A stretch of 64,000 bases of DNA, from the NCBI GenBank assembly GCA_017407115.1, contig JAFQXD010000062.1, positions 1 to 64,000 on the forward strand, given 5' to 3'. Under the pieces are notes generated by a model. That model had not been told where the DNA came from. It did not search any database and worked only from the letters and a program-made list of their open reading frames with translations. Below are positions 42,224-49,258 of this stretch, piece by piece. This DNA comes from Methanobrevibacter sp. GTDB lineage: Archaea; Methanobacteriota; Methanobacteria; Methanobacteriales; Methanobacteriaceae. The position numbers and the translations under genes are program-made. How positions within the stretch are numbered: the first letter of the stretch is position 1; every line of letters begins with the position of its first letter.

Positions 42224-42245
42224 AAGTAGATTGAAAAATCTACTT
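42224..42245 (-). terminator. Terminator of the first beta-helix adhesin gene
   Basis: The perfect 9-bp arms AAGTAGATT / AATCTACTT with a four-base loop overlap the stop codon. A T-rich tract follows on the minus strand. The same hairpin ends the neighbouring broken adhesin gene (44979-45000). Confidence 0.7.
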
Positions 42246-44585
42246 AACAGTAATTTTAACGCTTGCAGATTTCGCATTGTAGTAACTTGTAGCTGCAAAT
42301 TTAACTTTGGCTGTGTACTTACCTGATTTAGTTAATTTTGCAAGTTTAAATGTGGCAACACCTTTACTGTCAGTTCTTGCAGTGTATGTTTTTTTGCCCA
42401 CCGTTATTGTAACTTTAGCATTTTTCATAACCTTATTCTGGTTAGTTTTTAAAGTTACTGTGTATTTTTTAGTTTTATCTGTTCGTTTGAATGTTTTTGC
42501 ACCAGCAGTTAATTTTGGAGTCGCCTTTTTAACAGTAATTTTAGCAGAGGCTGAAGAATCTGTGTAGTTTTCATCACCTTCAACAGTTATTTCTGCAGCA
42601 TAAGAAGTTTTAGGGGCTAAATTGTCTGTTGTAAATTTAACCTGACCATTCTCATCTGTTTTCTGGGTTTTCACCCCATTGAGATTGACTGATACATTTT
42701 TTCCAACAATCGGATCACCATTGACATCAGTTAAAGTTACTACCAAGTATTTTCCACCATTATACACAGTACTTACAGAATTTGCCGAAATTTTTGGAGT
42801 TGCCTTTTTAATTACGACATTTACAGAAGCTGTAGAATTGAAATAATTGCTGCTACCTGCAAATGTAACTGTCGCAGTATAATCATTTGGAGATAAACCC
42901 TTAGTGGACAATTTAATCTGACCGTCTTTATCAGTTTTAACTGTGAATGTGGTTCCTCCCAAACTAACAGCTACGTTTTCATTTGAAATTGGAGCATTGC
43001 TGTCTTTAATCAGTTTTAGGATCAATTCATTATTGCTTCCATAATAGTTTTCAAAATTAACAACAATGTTAGTTCTTCTTGATTGGAAATCATCAAGCTT
43101 TAATGTTTGATTATTTATTCTTGCATAAACTGCCCTAATTCCATTTTGCGGATAAAAATCAAAAGTCGCAACACCATTGACTAATTTCTTTGTAGCCAAA
43201 GTGCCGGCATCTGTGAAAAAAGTCACATCAAGCGGAAGGTCAAATTCTCCATCGTATTCATAAATTTCTTTTGTATCATTGTCAAAATAATGCTTTAGGC
43301 TAACGGTTAACTGATTAATTTCATCTTTATAAATTGCACCATTATTTGAGGTGAATGTCATGACTAACCATCTGGAAGCATTTATTTTATCCGGACGTAT
43401 ATCTCCGCTGTGAGGTGAATAATAATAAGAGCTTATTTCATTCTGCCCCCACCAACAGTACTGTATGGTTGCATTATCATCTAGGGAAATATCCCCATAT
43501 GCTTCATATAATTTTATGTAATTGTCCACAATTGCACAGTTTTCCATATAAAGCTCTGTGTTTTTGAAATTATTGGATACTGCTGCATGATTTCCCGCAT
43601 GATTTTTTTCAAAAATAGTATTATATACTATTGTTGTAACATGCTGTCCACTAGGAGGTGCAAGAATTGCTGCCGCATAATATTGAACCTCATTATATCC
43701 AAAATAACTGTTGTTGATTATCATATACTTATGATTGCTTATAGCACCGGCCGTATAATTTGTAGTTAATCTCTCAAATCTGCAATTGTTTATTGTTGCA
43801 TTTCCAAGGTTCAATAATGCTGCTGCAGAATATGTGGTATAACATTTATAAAATAAACATCCATCCAAGTCTATTTTTCCTCCAGCTGCAATACATGCGC
43901 CAACACCCTCATATGAAATTAAGACATTTTCTGTAAAATTGGAGTTTTTAACGGATGTTGTTCCCAAAGTATACAAAACTCCACCATAATAGCGTGCACT
44001 GTTGTTTATAAAAAATGAATTTTCAATATTTAAAGTTCCTAGATTATTGTATATAACTCCACCATTTCCATATGCACTGGAATTTTTAAAAATACAATTT
44101 TTAATATTTATTTCCCCACCATCATTGTAGATTACTCCACCGTTTCCAATTAAGTAACCATTTATCAAGGTGATGTTAATTAAAGTTAATCTGCCTGCTG
44201 AATTTAGATTAAACAGCCTTCCAGCAGACTCCCCATTGATTAATGTGGTCTGTTTAGACTTTCCAATGATTGTTACTGATTTATCGATTTGAATATTTCT
44301 ATTGTTCTCGCCAACATACTCCCCGTCATTTAAATAGATTGTTGAGCCATCTTCACTATTGTTTATAGCGAATCCTAAACTTTTAAATGGATTTTGTGAA
44401 CTTCCATCACCACTTTCATCACTTGCATCAGGAGACACATAGATTTCAGACATCTCTCCAGGTGCAGAATCGCTTATAATATCGCTGCTGTTTGAATCAT
44501 CAATTGCACTAACACAGGATATTGTGCTTATTATTGATAAGATGATTAAAAACAGTAGAAAACGTTTAATATTATTTTTAATTAT
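42240..44585 (-). CDS. Adhesin-like surface protein: beta-helix plus Ig-like repeats; no canonical start codon
   Basis: The protein has a parallel beta-helix region (repeats such as GGVIYNDGGEINIKNC, about residues 100-370) and then four Ig-like repeats ending KSASVKITVK. It is probably exported and surface bound. The first ATG in frame (44453) falls after a clear signal peptide (IKRFLLFLIILSIISTISCVSA) that is encoded upstream in the same frame. That upstream frame has no ATG, GTG or TTG. A strong AGGGGG site (44594-44599) sits eight bases before an ATA codon at 44585. I take ATA as the start (781 residues); a mutated, weakly or non-expressed gene is the alternative. Confidence 0.75.
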   Translation of the reverse strand: MIKNNIKRFLLFLIILSIISTISCVSAIDDSNSSDIISDSAPGEMSEIYVSPDASDESGDGSSQNPFKSLGFAINNSEDGSTIYLNDGEYVGENNRNIQIDKSVTIIGKSKQTTLINGESAGRLFNLNSAGRLTLINITLINGYLIGNGGVIYNDGGEINIKNCIFKNSSAYGNGGVIYNNLGTLNIENSFFINNSARYYGGVLYTLGTTSVKNSNFTENVLISYEGVGACIAAGGKIDLDGCLFYKCYTTYSAAALLNLGNATINNCRFERLTTNYTAGAISNHKYMIINNSYFGYNEVQYYAAAILAPPSGQHVTTIVYNTIFEKNHAGNHAAVSNNFKNTELYMENCAIVDNYIKLYEAYGDISLDDNATIQYCWWGQNEISSYYYSPHSGDIRPDKINASRWLVMTFTSNNGAIYKDEINQLTVSLKHYFDNDTKEIYEYDGEFDLPLDVTFFTDAGTLATKKLVNGVATFDFYPQNGIRAVYARINNQTLKLDDFQSRRTNIVVNFENYYGSNNELILKLIKDSNAPISNENVAVSLGGTTFTVKTDKDGQIKLSTKGLSPNDYTATVTFAGSSNYFNSTASVNVVIKKATPKISANSVSTVYNGGKYLVVTLTDVNGDPIVGKNVSVNLNGVKTQKTDENGQVKFTTDNLAPKTSYAAEITVEGDENYTDSSASAKITVKKATPKLTAGAKTFKRTDKTKKYTVTLKTNQNKVMKNAKVTITVGKKTYTARTDSKGVATFKLAKLTKSGKYTAKVKFAATSYYNAKSASVKITVK

Positions 44586-44978: not shown

Positions 44979-45000
44979 AAGTAGATTGGAAAATCTACTT
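44979..45000 (-). terminator. Terminator of the broken adhesin gene
   Basis: The arms AAGTAGATT / AATCTACTT with loop GGAA overlap the stop codon, and T-rich sequence follows on the minus strand. The stem is identical to that at 42224-42245. Confidence 0.7.
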
Positions 45001-45778
45001 AACAGTAATTTTTGCTTTTACATATTTTACATTGTAGTACTTGCTACCGCCATACTTAACCACAGCAGTGAAAGTACCTTTCCCCATCAAGTTGGTTATT
45101 TTAAATGTGGCCTGACCTTTACTGTTGGTTTTGACTTTGTAGTAAATCTTGTTAACATTCAAAATAACCCATTTGTTTTTCATTACTTTGTTCTGATTGG
45201 TTTTCAAAGTAACTGTGTAGGTCTTGGTTTTTAGAGACCTTTTGAAAGCCTTATTAGGTACGATCAGTTTTGGGTAGGCTTTATTGACTTTAACACTGAC
45301 AGTTTTAGCGGATTTGGTATAGTTGGCATTTCCTGCAAAGGACAATGTAGCAGAGTATGTCTTTATAGGCACCAATCCATTTGTAGAAAATTTGACTTGG
45401 CCGTTTTTATCCGTGGTTTTAACATCAGCCCTGCCATTTGAAAATTTAACTGTTATTTTAACTCCACTCAATGGATTTCCATTACTGTCCTTTAAAGTAG
45501 CAACAATGTATTTACCGCCATTGTAAAAAGTAGTTACTGAAGATGCATTTAGCTTCTGCCCCCATTTTCAAAGCATCTTCACTTTTTAGATTGTTTCCAT
45601 CACTAATTGAATTTTCAGTTACATTATTCTCAACTGCACTTAACTGAGGTGTAATTACATCATCCGCCGAATCAGCCCCTAATGCAGTCACATTACTGTC
45701 GCTTGTCGCACAAACTGCACCAATCATCAAGAAAAACAGTAAGAATAATATTATAAATATTATTTTTTTATAACCTAT
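44995..45778 (-). pseudogene. Frameshifted adhesin-like gene (signal peptide plus two Ig-like repeats)
   Basis: Two consecutive frames make one protein. The upstream part (to 45512) encodes a signal peptide (IIFIILFLLFFLMIGAVCA) and a linker. The downstream part (from 45555 or so) encodes two Ig-like repeats closely related to the end of the neighbouring adhesin, including the shared stretch VTLKTNQNKVMKN. The frames differ by one base. Removing one G from the run of five at 45559-45563 gives a continuous frame through KMGQKLNASSVTTFYNGGKY. The start is also abnormal: GGTG-TTAAT is followed by ATA (45778), and no ATG, GTG or TTG precedes the signal peptide. It is either a pseudogene or switched off by slippage. 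Confidence 0.78.
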
Positions 45779-46152: not shown

Positions 46153-47613
46153 TTATATGTTATGTGCTATTGAACGTATTGTTAGTTCTTTTTCTGCATT
46201 TTTCATGCCTATTCTGTTTAGTTTTTGGAAATTGCGTGCGTTTCTTAGTAGTCCGAAGTGTGCTTCGTTTAGATTTGCTCTTTTTTTGTAGTAGATTTTT
46301 CCTTCAGGAGATTGGAAATCTGCTTTCATTTTCCATCTTAAATCATTGACAGGTTCGAAAATTTCTTTTACTCGGCTTTGGGTGCATTGATTTTTTACTG
46401 GGCAAGTTTTACATTTGTTTGTTGAGTATACTCTCATCCATTCGCCGTTTAGTTTTCTATCGTTTTTGTAATGTAGGTGTTCGCCCATTGGGCAGATGAA
46501 TGAGTCTGTTTTCCATTCATAAATGAAATTTGCTTTGGCGAATGGTTTTTCCTTATTTTTAGGTTTGGATTTGCTGCTTTCTGCTCGATCCGGTATTAAT
46601 AATCTTATGTTGTTTTCATAAGCGTAGTTTATTACATTATCGTTCATATATCCGTTGTCTGCTACTAATACTTTGGGATTGATTCCCATTTGTATTTTTA
46701 TTTCATGTAACATTTCAAATAGTTCATGAGCGTCCGTAGCATTCTGCGTTATATATTGACCAACAACCATTCCATTTTTACTGTCCACTGCAACTTGATA
46801 ATTATAATTCAAACCCATATTTCCTTTTTTATCCATCATCCACCTAGATTCCGGGTCTGTTAAACTAATAGTATGTTTTCCATCATAATTTGCTTTTAAA
46901 ACATCCAATAAATCAAGAACATAACACATATTGTCCATACTAATTAAAGCCGTTTTAAGAAGAATTAAAGCATTTTTATTCAAATTATCATTTATTTCAT
47001 TGATTAAATATTTAATTTCATCTTGTTTTTTGTTTTCATTGTAATATTGGTGGATTTTGTACCAAATACTGTTTTTACTCCAGTTTCCACCATAATCGAA
47101 AATCAAATTTTGTAAAAATTCGATTTCTTCAATTTTGATCAAACGAAAATTATTGGAATGTGCTTTTACAATGCTGCCATCAACTGCAACGCACTCACCA
47201 TCAATCAAACCTAAATTAATCCCCAAAATCACAGTGTAATGGAAAAATGCATTGATTAACAATGTATGTTCCTGTAAAAACAAATGAATAATGGATTTCT
47301 TAGGTTTCTTATCATTCAAGATATAATTAACTGATTCATCATTATTATTTATCCAATCAGCCAATTTTCTACAACTAAATCGACTATTATAAACTCCATA
47401 AACAACAAATCCTAATAATTCATCCAAATAATATTTTTTTGGCCTTCCCTGATTCTTAAAATCATCTTTAAATAGTAATGGAAAATCACGTTTAAAATTA
47501 CTTACTAACTTTTTAACGGTGAAAACAATGTTGTCCTTATTCAAATTCTGTCCAGAAAATGCATATGTAAAAATAGCCTGTTCACAAGTAGTATTATCAT
47601 AAACTAAAGTCAT
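46153..47613 (-). CDS. Transposase, IS1182-like DDE family
   Basis: The 486-residue protein has an N-terminal DUF772-type region (YYLDELLGFVVYGVYNSRFSCRKL). The first catalytic Asp is in ECVAVDGSIVKAHS and the second in VLVADNGYMND. The TDPESRWM...GLNYNYQVAVD block is typical of this family, the cysteine pair CKTCPVKNQC follows, and the final Glu region is MKNAEKELTIRSIAHN. It looks full length and uninterrupted, so the element may be active. The ATG at 47613 follows an AGGTG site at slightly long spacing; a TTG at 47622 is too close to it. Confidence 0.92.
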   Translation of the reverse strand: MTLVYDNTTCEQAIFTYAFSGQNLNKDNIVFTVKKLVSNFKRDFPLLFKDDFKNQGRPKKYYLDELLGFVVYGVYNSRFSCRKLADWINNNDESVNYILNDKKPKKSIIHLFLQEHTLLINAFFHYTVILGINLGLIDGECVAVDGSIVKAHSNNFRLIKIEEIEFLQNLIFDYGGNWSKNSIWYKIHQYYNENKKQDEIKYLINEINDNLNKNALILLKTALISMDNMCYVLDLLDVLKANYDGKHTISLTDPESRWMMDKKGNMGLNYNYQVAVDSKNGMVVGQYITQNATDAHELFEMLHEIKIQMGINPKVLVADNGYMNDNVINYAYENNIRLLIPDRAESSKSKPKNKEKPFAKANFIYEWKTDSFICPMGEHLHYKNDRKLNGEWMRVYSTNKCKTCPVKNQCTQSRVKEIFEPVNDLRWKMKADFQSPEGKIYYKKRANLNEAHFGLLRNARNFQKLNRIGMKNAEKELTIRSIAHNI

Positions 47614-47831
47614 AAATATCAAAACACCTAAACATTTTCACAAAACCAAAACATTTAAGTGTCACAAAATACATAAAAATAAATTGTGAGGAGGTTTTGG
47701 TTTTTGTTGTCCTAAATAACTATTTATCTTCTCACATATTTATAATTAACTACTTTTTAGAAATTAATATTCAAAATAAGTAAATTTACAAGAAAAAATT
47801 AATAAAAAAATAAAAAATTAGAAAAAATTAT

Positions 47832-47973: not shown

Positions 47974-48047
47974 AGTATATAAATTTATACTAAAATAATT
48001 AAGTATAATTTATTATACTAAACCTATTAAGTATATTTTTTTATACT
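47974..48047. promoter_or_regulatory. Three AGTATA-N6-TATACT palindromes at exact 28-bp spacing
   Basis: Identical arms AGTATA and TATACT separated by six bases occur at 47974-47991, 48002-48019 and 48030-48047. Starts are exactly 28 bases apart, and the spacers before copies two and three both end in ATTA. The third copy overlaps a TATA-like AAGTATAT about 45 bases before the ATPase ATG. The arrangement fits an operator array for an autoregulated gene, or origin-type iterons. Confidence 0.7.
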
Positions 48048-48076
48048 AGTAAAACAAATATAATTATGTGATTTGC

Positions 48077-49258
48077 ATGAATTCAAAACCTTTATTTTTA
48101 CATGACGATTTAGATGAATATTTCTACAACAGAAAAAATGACATAAAAAAATTAAAATACCAAATAAATTCATTAAACTACTCTTTACCCCAGCAAATAC
48201 TACTAACAGGATATAGAGGCGTGGGAAAAACATATCTTCTAAAAAAAATAATGACCGAAATAGAATCCAATATCATATGCACATATATTGACATAGCACA
48301 AATCTATGCACAAGAAGAAAATGAATTAACAAAAGAAACAGCCCTTATTGAACTTCTAAAAGAAATGAACAAAAGTATACAAGCAAATAACTATAAAAAT
48401 AAATACAAAGCAAAAATAACAGAATTAATAGATAATCTAAAACTTAAAAAATATGATTTTCACGACATAACAGAAATACTTAACATTCCAATCCCAAAAA
48501 CTGAAACAAATTATAGGAAATTAAGTCAATTTGTAATGGAATTTCCACAAAAAATAGTTGATGAAATAGATGAAATAAACGGATTTGTGATAATCATAGA
48601 TGAATTCCAAATGCTAAAAAAAATAAATGATTTAGAGAAATTATTTTGGCTAATACGAAGCTACAGTCAAACACAACATAATGTTTCTTATATATTCACA
48701 GGGTCCATATCACGAAGCTCTGAAATCCTAAATGAAATAAACGGTGAAAGTGGACCCTTTGGAGGTAGACTACAACAAATAACAATCAACCCATTCACTA
48801 AAGAAGAGACAAAATCTTATTTCAAAGACAAAATGAGTGAAATAAACTTCACAGAAGACGGATTTGAAAGATTCTACAAATGTACTCGAGGAATACCTCT
48901 ATACATAAATAGTTTCTACAATGTAATGGATAGTAATCAATTATATACTCCAGAAATTGTAAAAGAAACATTTTTCACAAATATGGAACAAATTTTAATA
49001 ATGTGGATAAAAGTTTGGAGTAGTTTAAACGATAATGAAAAAAATATAGTCAAACAATTAGTTGATGAAGACTCATTAACATGGAGTGAATTACTTGAAA
49101 AAACAAGCATATCTAGAGGGACATTCAACAAATACTTGACAAACCTAAAATATAAAGGAATATTGAACTACACAAAGAAAAAATACTCCATTGAAGACGA
49201 AATGCTAAAAACTTGGTTAAAACATGAAAAAGAGGTTTATGGAATTTATCCATTATAA
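48077..49258 (+). CDS. Archaeal AAA+ ATPase (COG1672-like) with C-terminal winged helix
   Basis: With the ATG at 48077 the protein is 393 residues; a GTG three codons upstream is possible. It has Walker A GYRGVGKT (45-52), Walker B VIIIDEF (171-177) and a sensor-1-like FTGSISRS. The C-terminal winged helix (WSELLEKTSISRGTFNKYLTNLKYKGIL) has a DNA-binding appearance. The family includes Orc1/Cdc6-related ATPases of uncertain function, often linked to mobile or defence regions. Codon use is much more AT-rich than the neighbours (many ATA and AAA codons), and an IS element lies beside it, both suggesting recent acquisition. Three upstream palindromes cover its promoter. No ribosome binding site is evident. 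Confidence 0.85.
   Translation: MNSKPLFLHDDLDEYFYNRKNDIKKLKYQINSLNYSLPQQILLTGYRGVGKTYLLKKIMTEIESNIICTYIDIAQIYAQEENELTKETALIELLKEMNKSIQANNYKNKYKAKITELIDNLKLKKYDFHDITEILNIPIPKTETNYRKLSQFVMEFPQKIVDEIDEINGFVIIIDEFQMLKKINDLEKLFWLIRSYSQTQHNVSYIFTGSISRSSEILNEINGESGPFGGRLQQITINPFTKEETKSYFKDKMSEINFTEDGFERFYKCTRGIPLYINSFYNVMDSNQLYTPEIVKETFFTNMEQILIMWIKVWSSLNDNEKNIVKQLVDEDSLTWSELLEKTSISRGTFNKYLTNLKYKGILNYTKKKYSIEDEMLKTWLKHEKEVYGIYPL

Follow-up and report, generated by a model that had tools for sequence, protein, structure and literature searches.

The window, i.e. the whole 64,000-nucleotide stretch of Methanobrevibacter sp. DNA that was analysed, carries on its forward strand the gene of a 393-residue ATPase, P0001 (48077–49258), preceded by three palindromes of the form AGTATA-N6-TATACT. 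These are located, with no strand assigned, at 47974–47991 (AGTATA-TAAATT-TATACT), 48002–48019 (AGTATA-ATTTAT-TATACT) and 48030–48047 (AGTATA-TTTTTT-TATACT), their centres lying 94, 66 and 38 bp before the ATG. The start-to-start steps are exactly 28 bp, so that the strict period and the positions given in a preliminary description of this DNA are confirmed. The identity of the copies claimed there holds for the arms but not for the N6 centres, which differ from copy to copy. The third copy was also said to lie on a TATA-like sequence; its left half does overlap the best TATA-like stretch, GTATATTT, at about −46 to −39, and the promoter at this place is a prediction from sequence only. A single half-site AGTAAA at 48048–48053 is a weak candidate for the remnant of a fourth site in an 18-bp register. 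In two close relatives, L034 and L006, this position is occupied by a degenerate site with one or two mismatches, centred at −22/−23.

The ATG at 48077 is the start codon indicated by the homologues, whereas the ORF caller chose the GTG at 48068; the close homologues begin with MNSKPLF. The sequence GTGAT (48068–48072, forward strand) is a probable ribosome-binding site, and GGTGA or a similar G-rich motif occupies this position in most homologues. With 27.2% G+C the gene is the lowest among the 43 ORFs of at least 200 residues in the window (35.7% overall), which bears out that it is far more AT-rich than its surroundings. The neighbouring insertion sequence is also present, as a DDE transposase gene at 46153–47622, upstream. 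Between this element and an intact adhesin-like ORF (42240–44453) there is an apparently broken adhesin-like gene (44995–45730), with its C-terminal piece at 44995–45471 and its N-terminal piece at 45512–45730. In genomes G076 and G094 the sequence that matches 41.0–41.8 kb of the window lies close beside an FMN oxidoreductase gene, whereas in the window about 7.4 kb, comprising adhesin-like genes, the insertion sequence and the ATPase cassette, is found between the two, which marks the locus as variable.

The three-palindrome array is not due to chance. None of 4000 dinucleotide shuffles attained the array score of the 200-bp upstream region, and the three sites are the only exact matches to AGTATA-N6-TATACT in the whole genome of 2,958,583 bases. 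One mismatch brings in 18 further matches, scattered across the genome; the total of 21 including the array compares with 39 for a reversed control pattern, so that the AGTATA form is the rarer one. In the complete genome G039 all three exact palindromes are at its own ATPase gene, and the same applies to G079 (3/3), G071, G098 and G051 (each 2/2). Within exact matching there is thus no sign of a regulon.

The protein was described as a P-loop ATPase with a C-terminal winged helix, and both parts are found. P0001 matches PF01637, a STAND/AAA+-type ATPase family, with 59.5 bits against a curated cut-off of 33.2, as well as NACHT, AAA_14 and related models, and PF01637 is matched by all 39 aligned family members at E ≤ 0.001. 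The Walker A (about residues 45–52), Walker B/DEFQ (about 172–178) and GxP-type (RGIP, about 271–274) motifs are conserved in the family, and G45, R47, G48, G50, K51, D175, E176, G272 and P274 are invariant in alignment A1. An AlphaFold2 model of P0001 built from 39 homologues (pLDDT 85.8, pTM 0.84) places the recognition helix of the winged helix at residues 347–359, starting with Arg347. The top two Foldseek matches, PABY2304 (2qen) and SSO1545 (2fna), each have an E-value of about 7e-15 and cover nearly the whole chain; next come Cdc6/Orc1–DNA structures (2qby, E 1.8e-10). The family profile over the winged helix matches structures of the MarR-type regulators AdcR/ZitR and of Lrs14. Pfam models gave no sensor domain in P0001, the 393 residues being filled by the ATPase core and the winged helix. 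The match to the Orc1/Cdc6 model TIGR02928 (40.7 bits, cut-off 181.3) is below threshold, and defence-system libraries returned weak domain-level matches to P0001 and nothing stronger.

Homologues occur in 83 of 139 genomes of Methanobacteriaceae (single-sequence search); of the 152 genomes covered for the phylum, 75 have one in a profile search at E ≤ 1e-20, and all of these belong to this family. Genomes with any match have between 1 and 13, many close relatives have none, and a full-length gene of more than 60% identity is limited to 7 genomes, the window's own included. This patchy distribution would fit horizontal movement combined with loss. Most of the genomes compared are draft assemblies, and two arrays (L183, L191) lie at contig ends. 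The window's own genome holds five paralogues. Paralogues a few kb apart, two or three together, are seen on contigs C88 and C144 of G125, and others some tens of kb apart on contig C4 of G110, which suggests that the cassettes can form clusters.

The limits of the conserved unit follow the array and the ORF closely. For the pairs L092/L096, L089/L097 and L089/L090 the DNA is 88–93% identical from the first palindrome to the stop codon or shortly past it, and nothing else is shared across the 10–18 kb fetched. In L082/L083 the shared region likewise consists of array and ORF, with repetitive adhesin-like neighbours in addition. A conserved partner gene, of the toxin–antitoxin or operon type, was not found, and each neighbour family is limited to at most 3 of the 91 loci. 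Array and ORF thus appear to make up a self-contained cassette that is placed in unrelated genomic contexts and inherited patchily. Carriage by viruses or plasmids was considered and rejected: phage and IMG/VR collections gave no matches to the gene, and the three plasmid matches are weak, each below 31% identity and two of them partial.

According to the preliminary description the array would be incidental should homologues lack it. In close relatives the opposite was found, with AGTATA palindromes upstream of all seven genes of more than 60% identity, the window gene counted. A strong array (z ≥ 3.5, 60 shuffles per gene, the relatives being non-independent) occurs before 57 of the 103 related ATPase genes of Methanobacteriaceae whose upstream regions were scored, located at the promoter region of the gene itself. 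The downstream regions gave 2 in 101, and the regions upstream of other window ORFs 0 in 45. Weak statistics, with 60 shuffles and AT-rich sequence, explain part of the 46 upstream regions that fall below the cut, and some relatives, such as L031, L047 and L053, may truly be without arrays. The median position of the last site's centre is −50 relative to the start codon; in most genes this site lies at about −22 to −50, over or beside a TATA-like region, while the arrays extend upstream to about −190.

The arms differ among subfamilies. Genes of about 50% identity keep the architecture but use different arms, for example ACTTCA-N6-TGAAGT and ACTTTA-N6-TAAAGT. Odd-centred palindromes predominate in a second clade (34–41% identity), with arms such as ATAATG, ATACTA and TATTCA. 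Even palindromes are found in 24 of the 28 array-bearing clade-1 genes and odd ones in 21 of 29 in clade 2. Each paralogue thus has a private motif. In the window's genome the motifs of the five paralogues differ where they are readable (AGTATA, TTATTC-type, TACTAT and GTAACA-type), with the array of the 44% paralogue being weak and the GTAACA-type array below the cut.

The spacing of the sites follows a simple pattern. The 192 distances between neighbouring centres fall mainly into classes of 18–19 bp (77) and 26–29 bp (80); two smaller classes, 44–48 bp (23) and 65–66 bp (4), are sums of these steps, and 8 distances lie elsewhere. Many arrays alternate strictly, giving a double period of 45–48 bp, as in L138 (29,19,29,19,29), L015 (27,18,27,18,27,18) and L078 (28,19,28,19). 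The array of the window gene may be regarded as the 28/28 version of this family spacing, possibly with the half-site relic at the 18-bp position. Since the short and the long step are about one helical turn apart, neighbouring sites keep nearly equal relative rotation, which hints at contact between bound dimers. Regular spacing could also be in part a by-product of tandem duplication, with no selection on spacing itself. In L034 and L006, counted on their sequences, the arms differ at 0 of 36 positions and the spacers at 6 of 19, which speaks against duplication as the sole source of the arrays.

A connection between the arms and the encoded protein emerges from the recognition helix. When its first residue, 347, is Arg or Lys the second base of the arm is G, and when it is Thr, Pro or Gln this base is C. 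The relation was examined in clade-1 genes that have strong even arrays, 24 in all, and holds in each of the 11 clusters into which they fall at 70% identity (Fisher p = 0.002). The tree requires three changes of state, at least two of which are forced by well-supported branches, and only 5 of the 393 columns separate the R/K from the T/P/Q group. Another 15 clade-1 genes have arrays that are weaker or odd; most of those bearing Lys again show G in the arm. Among them L060, which combines Pro with AGTTAA, is the one exception, and L025 is ambiguous. The overall correlation between motif similarity and recognition-helix identity (0.68–0.69) drops to 0.12 after overall identity is accounted for and was not relied on. 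The co-variation argument therefore rests on a single residue and about three changes, spotted post hoc, and gives good but not conclusive backing for the encoded protein as the binder.

In view of these observations the palindromes are probably the operator array of their own STAND/AAA+ winged-helix ATPase, positioned over its promoter and serving autoregulation. An autoregulatory operator set was one of two possibilities raised in the preliminary description, and it is well supported by the recurrence of the array at homologues, the retention of the spacing grammar and the co-variation of the arms with the protein's own recognition helix. That the encoded protein binds the array is the part for which a strong case can be made from these comparisons. 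A winged-helix dimer would bind each 18-bp palindrome, with one subunit per 6-bp arm, and adjacent dimers on the 18/28-bp lattice would touch or be bridged via their ATPase domains. P0001 would in this way assemble cooperatively on its own promoter, a step to which we attach moderate confidence. With the last sites covering the core promoter, the bound form would most probably repress its own transcription, occlusion being the simplest outcome; the preference for repression over activation is weak to moderate. A ligand or the ATP/ADP state might then release or convert the bound protein, a proposal taken from family knowledge only, in that a STAND-type core would suggest switching of assembly by nucleotide state or ligand. 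With an arm sequence of its own for each paralogue, paralogues should ignore each other.

A more far-reaching version of the autoregulatory reading is speculative. Here the lineage-specific one-gene cassettes would have essentially a single DNA target for the ATPase, its own palindrome lattice, which would be its functional assembly partner, either in a sensor or conflict switch or in a selfish element that governs how it spreads. Helix and lattice would co-evolve, so that paralogues coexist with no cross-talk.

The array could alternatively mediate activation. ATP-bound multimers would bind it cooperatively and recruit the transcription machinery, producing a positive-feedback switch, in line with the resemblance of a STAND fold and a multi-site array to MalT and the MalT boxes (PMC4381067). 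The upstream reach of the arrays, to about −190, also exceeds what simple occlusion needs. However, the location of the last sites over or next to the TATA-like region in most genes is a position typical of repression in archaea, and a separate sensor domain is missing; we regard activation as unlikely.

Lower still is the probability that another, host-encoded regulator binds the array and that the ATPase gene is a mere target. The product of a downstream gene need not read the operator in front of it, but the arms follow the recognition helix of precisely this product, and paralogues in the same genome have different arms. Furthermore, exact sites are restricted to the ATPase locus in the close relatives checked, and array and gene travel together, which makes an outside regulator rather improbable.

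The other possibility in the preliminary description, an initiator–iteron module in which an Orc1/Cdc6-like initiator of an acquired replicon uses the palindromes as origin repeats, does not stand up well. The fold similarity to Cdc6/Orc1–DNA structures, the sub-threshold TIGR02928 match and a gene adjoining repeats would agree with it. Against it are the presence of up to 13 copies per genome with differing motifs, and thus several different arrays on one chromosome, and the weak plasmid and absent phage and viral matches. Beyond the array there is no conserved DNA where strands could open. In the complete genomes checked (G039 and G114) the ATPase cassettes are not adjacent to orc1/cdc6 genes, which in G039 lie at 52 and 407,954, against 368,381 for the ATPase. 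An origin function is therefore very unlikely, and score, copy number and location led to the rejection of Orc1/Cdc6 family membership.

Formation of small RNA hairpins in the leader is a still fainter prospect. Each 18-mer folds at about −3 kcal/mol, but the six-pair A/U-rich stems are weak, and a transcript starting at any plausible position would not contain most of the sites. Even and odd palindromes with very different arms keep the same spacing, and the co-variation is with the recognition helix of a protein; the hairpin explanation was rejected as weak. That the palindromes are end or resolution repeats of the insertion sequence at 46153–47622 has a negligible probability and was rejected, since the array recurs before homologues with unrelated flanks and the homology starts at the array and not at the insertion sequence.

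Arrays are also found with no adjoining ATPase gene (L190, L193, L194, L197, L199 and L200), something that a purely autoregulatory role does not require. The L190 array (1909–2137, genome G019) has about eight AGTATA-type palindromes, one per 28–29 bp, with AAACCCTATTT and AAACACTAGTT spacers flanking, and no ATPase gene occurs near it within the 4.1 kb read. In L191 (1–173, contig C275 of G026) a 46-bp doublet (18+18+10) is present three times; the contig starts at this array, and the gene that begins some 50 bp after its end encodes a Methyltransf_30 (PF05430) protein rather than an ATPase. Arrays in L200, L197, L194, L193 and L199 are of the ACTTCA type. L200 has coding fragments ending in ...VKEVNEPSYI on both sides of the array, and this fragment is also found after the intact cassette of L095. 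An interpretation of the L200 array as the scar of a deleted ATPase gene was rejected, because the L095-like flank aligns on the opposite side of the array. Truncated ATPase genes with AGTATA palindromes still adjoining are seen in L187 (193–402, residues 1–70) and L192 (1648–2181, residues 216–393); these are either decaying or broken copies or assembly breaks.

With the proposed assignment there is a concrete, testable candidate DNA target for a large archaeal ATPase family that is so far uncharacterised. Some twelve protein/operator pairs that have co-evolved, and whose grammar of arm sequence, parity and 18/28 spacing is simple, would become available as a natural series in which the assembly of STAND-type ATPases on DNA and the insulation of paralogous regulators can be tested. 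Attention is also drawn to a small cassette that gut and rumen methanogens inherit patchily.

No account of palindrome arrays at ATPases of the PF01637/SSO1545/PABY2304 type was found in the open-licence literature. The PF01637 ATPases, including SSO1545 (2fna) and PABY2304 (2qen), share the ATPase core and the domain order with P0001. Regulators of the MarR/AdcR/ZitR and Lrs14 type have a winged helix that matches that of the P0001 family. Dimers of the MarR/Lrs14 type recognise palindromes of similar length, which often lie in the regulators' own promoters. These regulators differ in that they are small, lack an ATPase domain and usually have few operator sites. With Orc1/Cdc6 and its ORB repeats P0001 has in common the AAA+ plus winged-helix fold and a gene that adjoins repeated sites, but it scores far under the family cut-off, is multi-copy and is encoded away from orc1/cdc6 loci, and its sites, unlike ORB repeats, are fully palindromic, follow an 18/28 lattice and cover the gene's own promoter. 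MalT and other SWACOS proteins and IniR, whose ATPase domain was modelled on SSO1545 (PMC5760070), likewise join an ATP-switch fold to a DNA-binding domain. MalT shares in addition a multi-box operator; in MalT, binding to several boxes is cooperative and coupled to multimerisation, which precedes it (PMC4381067). In these proteins, however, large sensor domains are present, the DNA-binding domains are of other types and the targets are other operons, whereas P0001 has no sensor domain and its genome contains just the one cluster of exact sites. DNA-binding ATPases that regulate themselves through operators of several sites are known as a kind, to which the array described here would add a variant.
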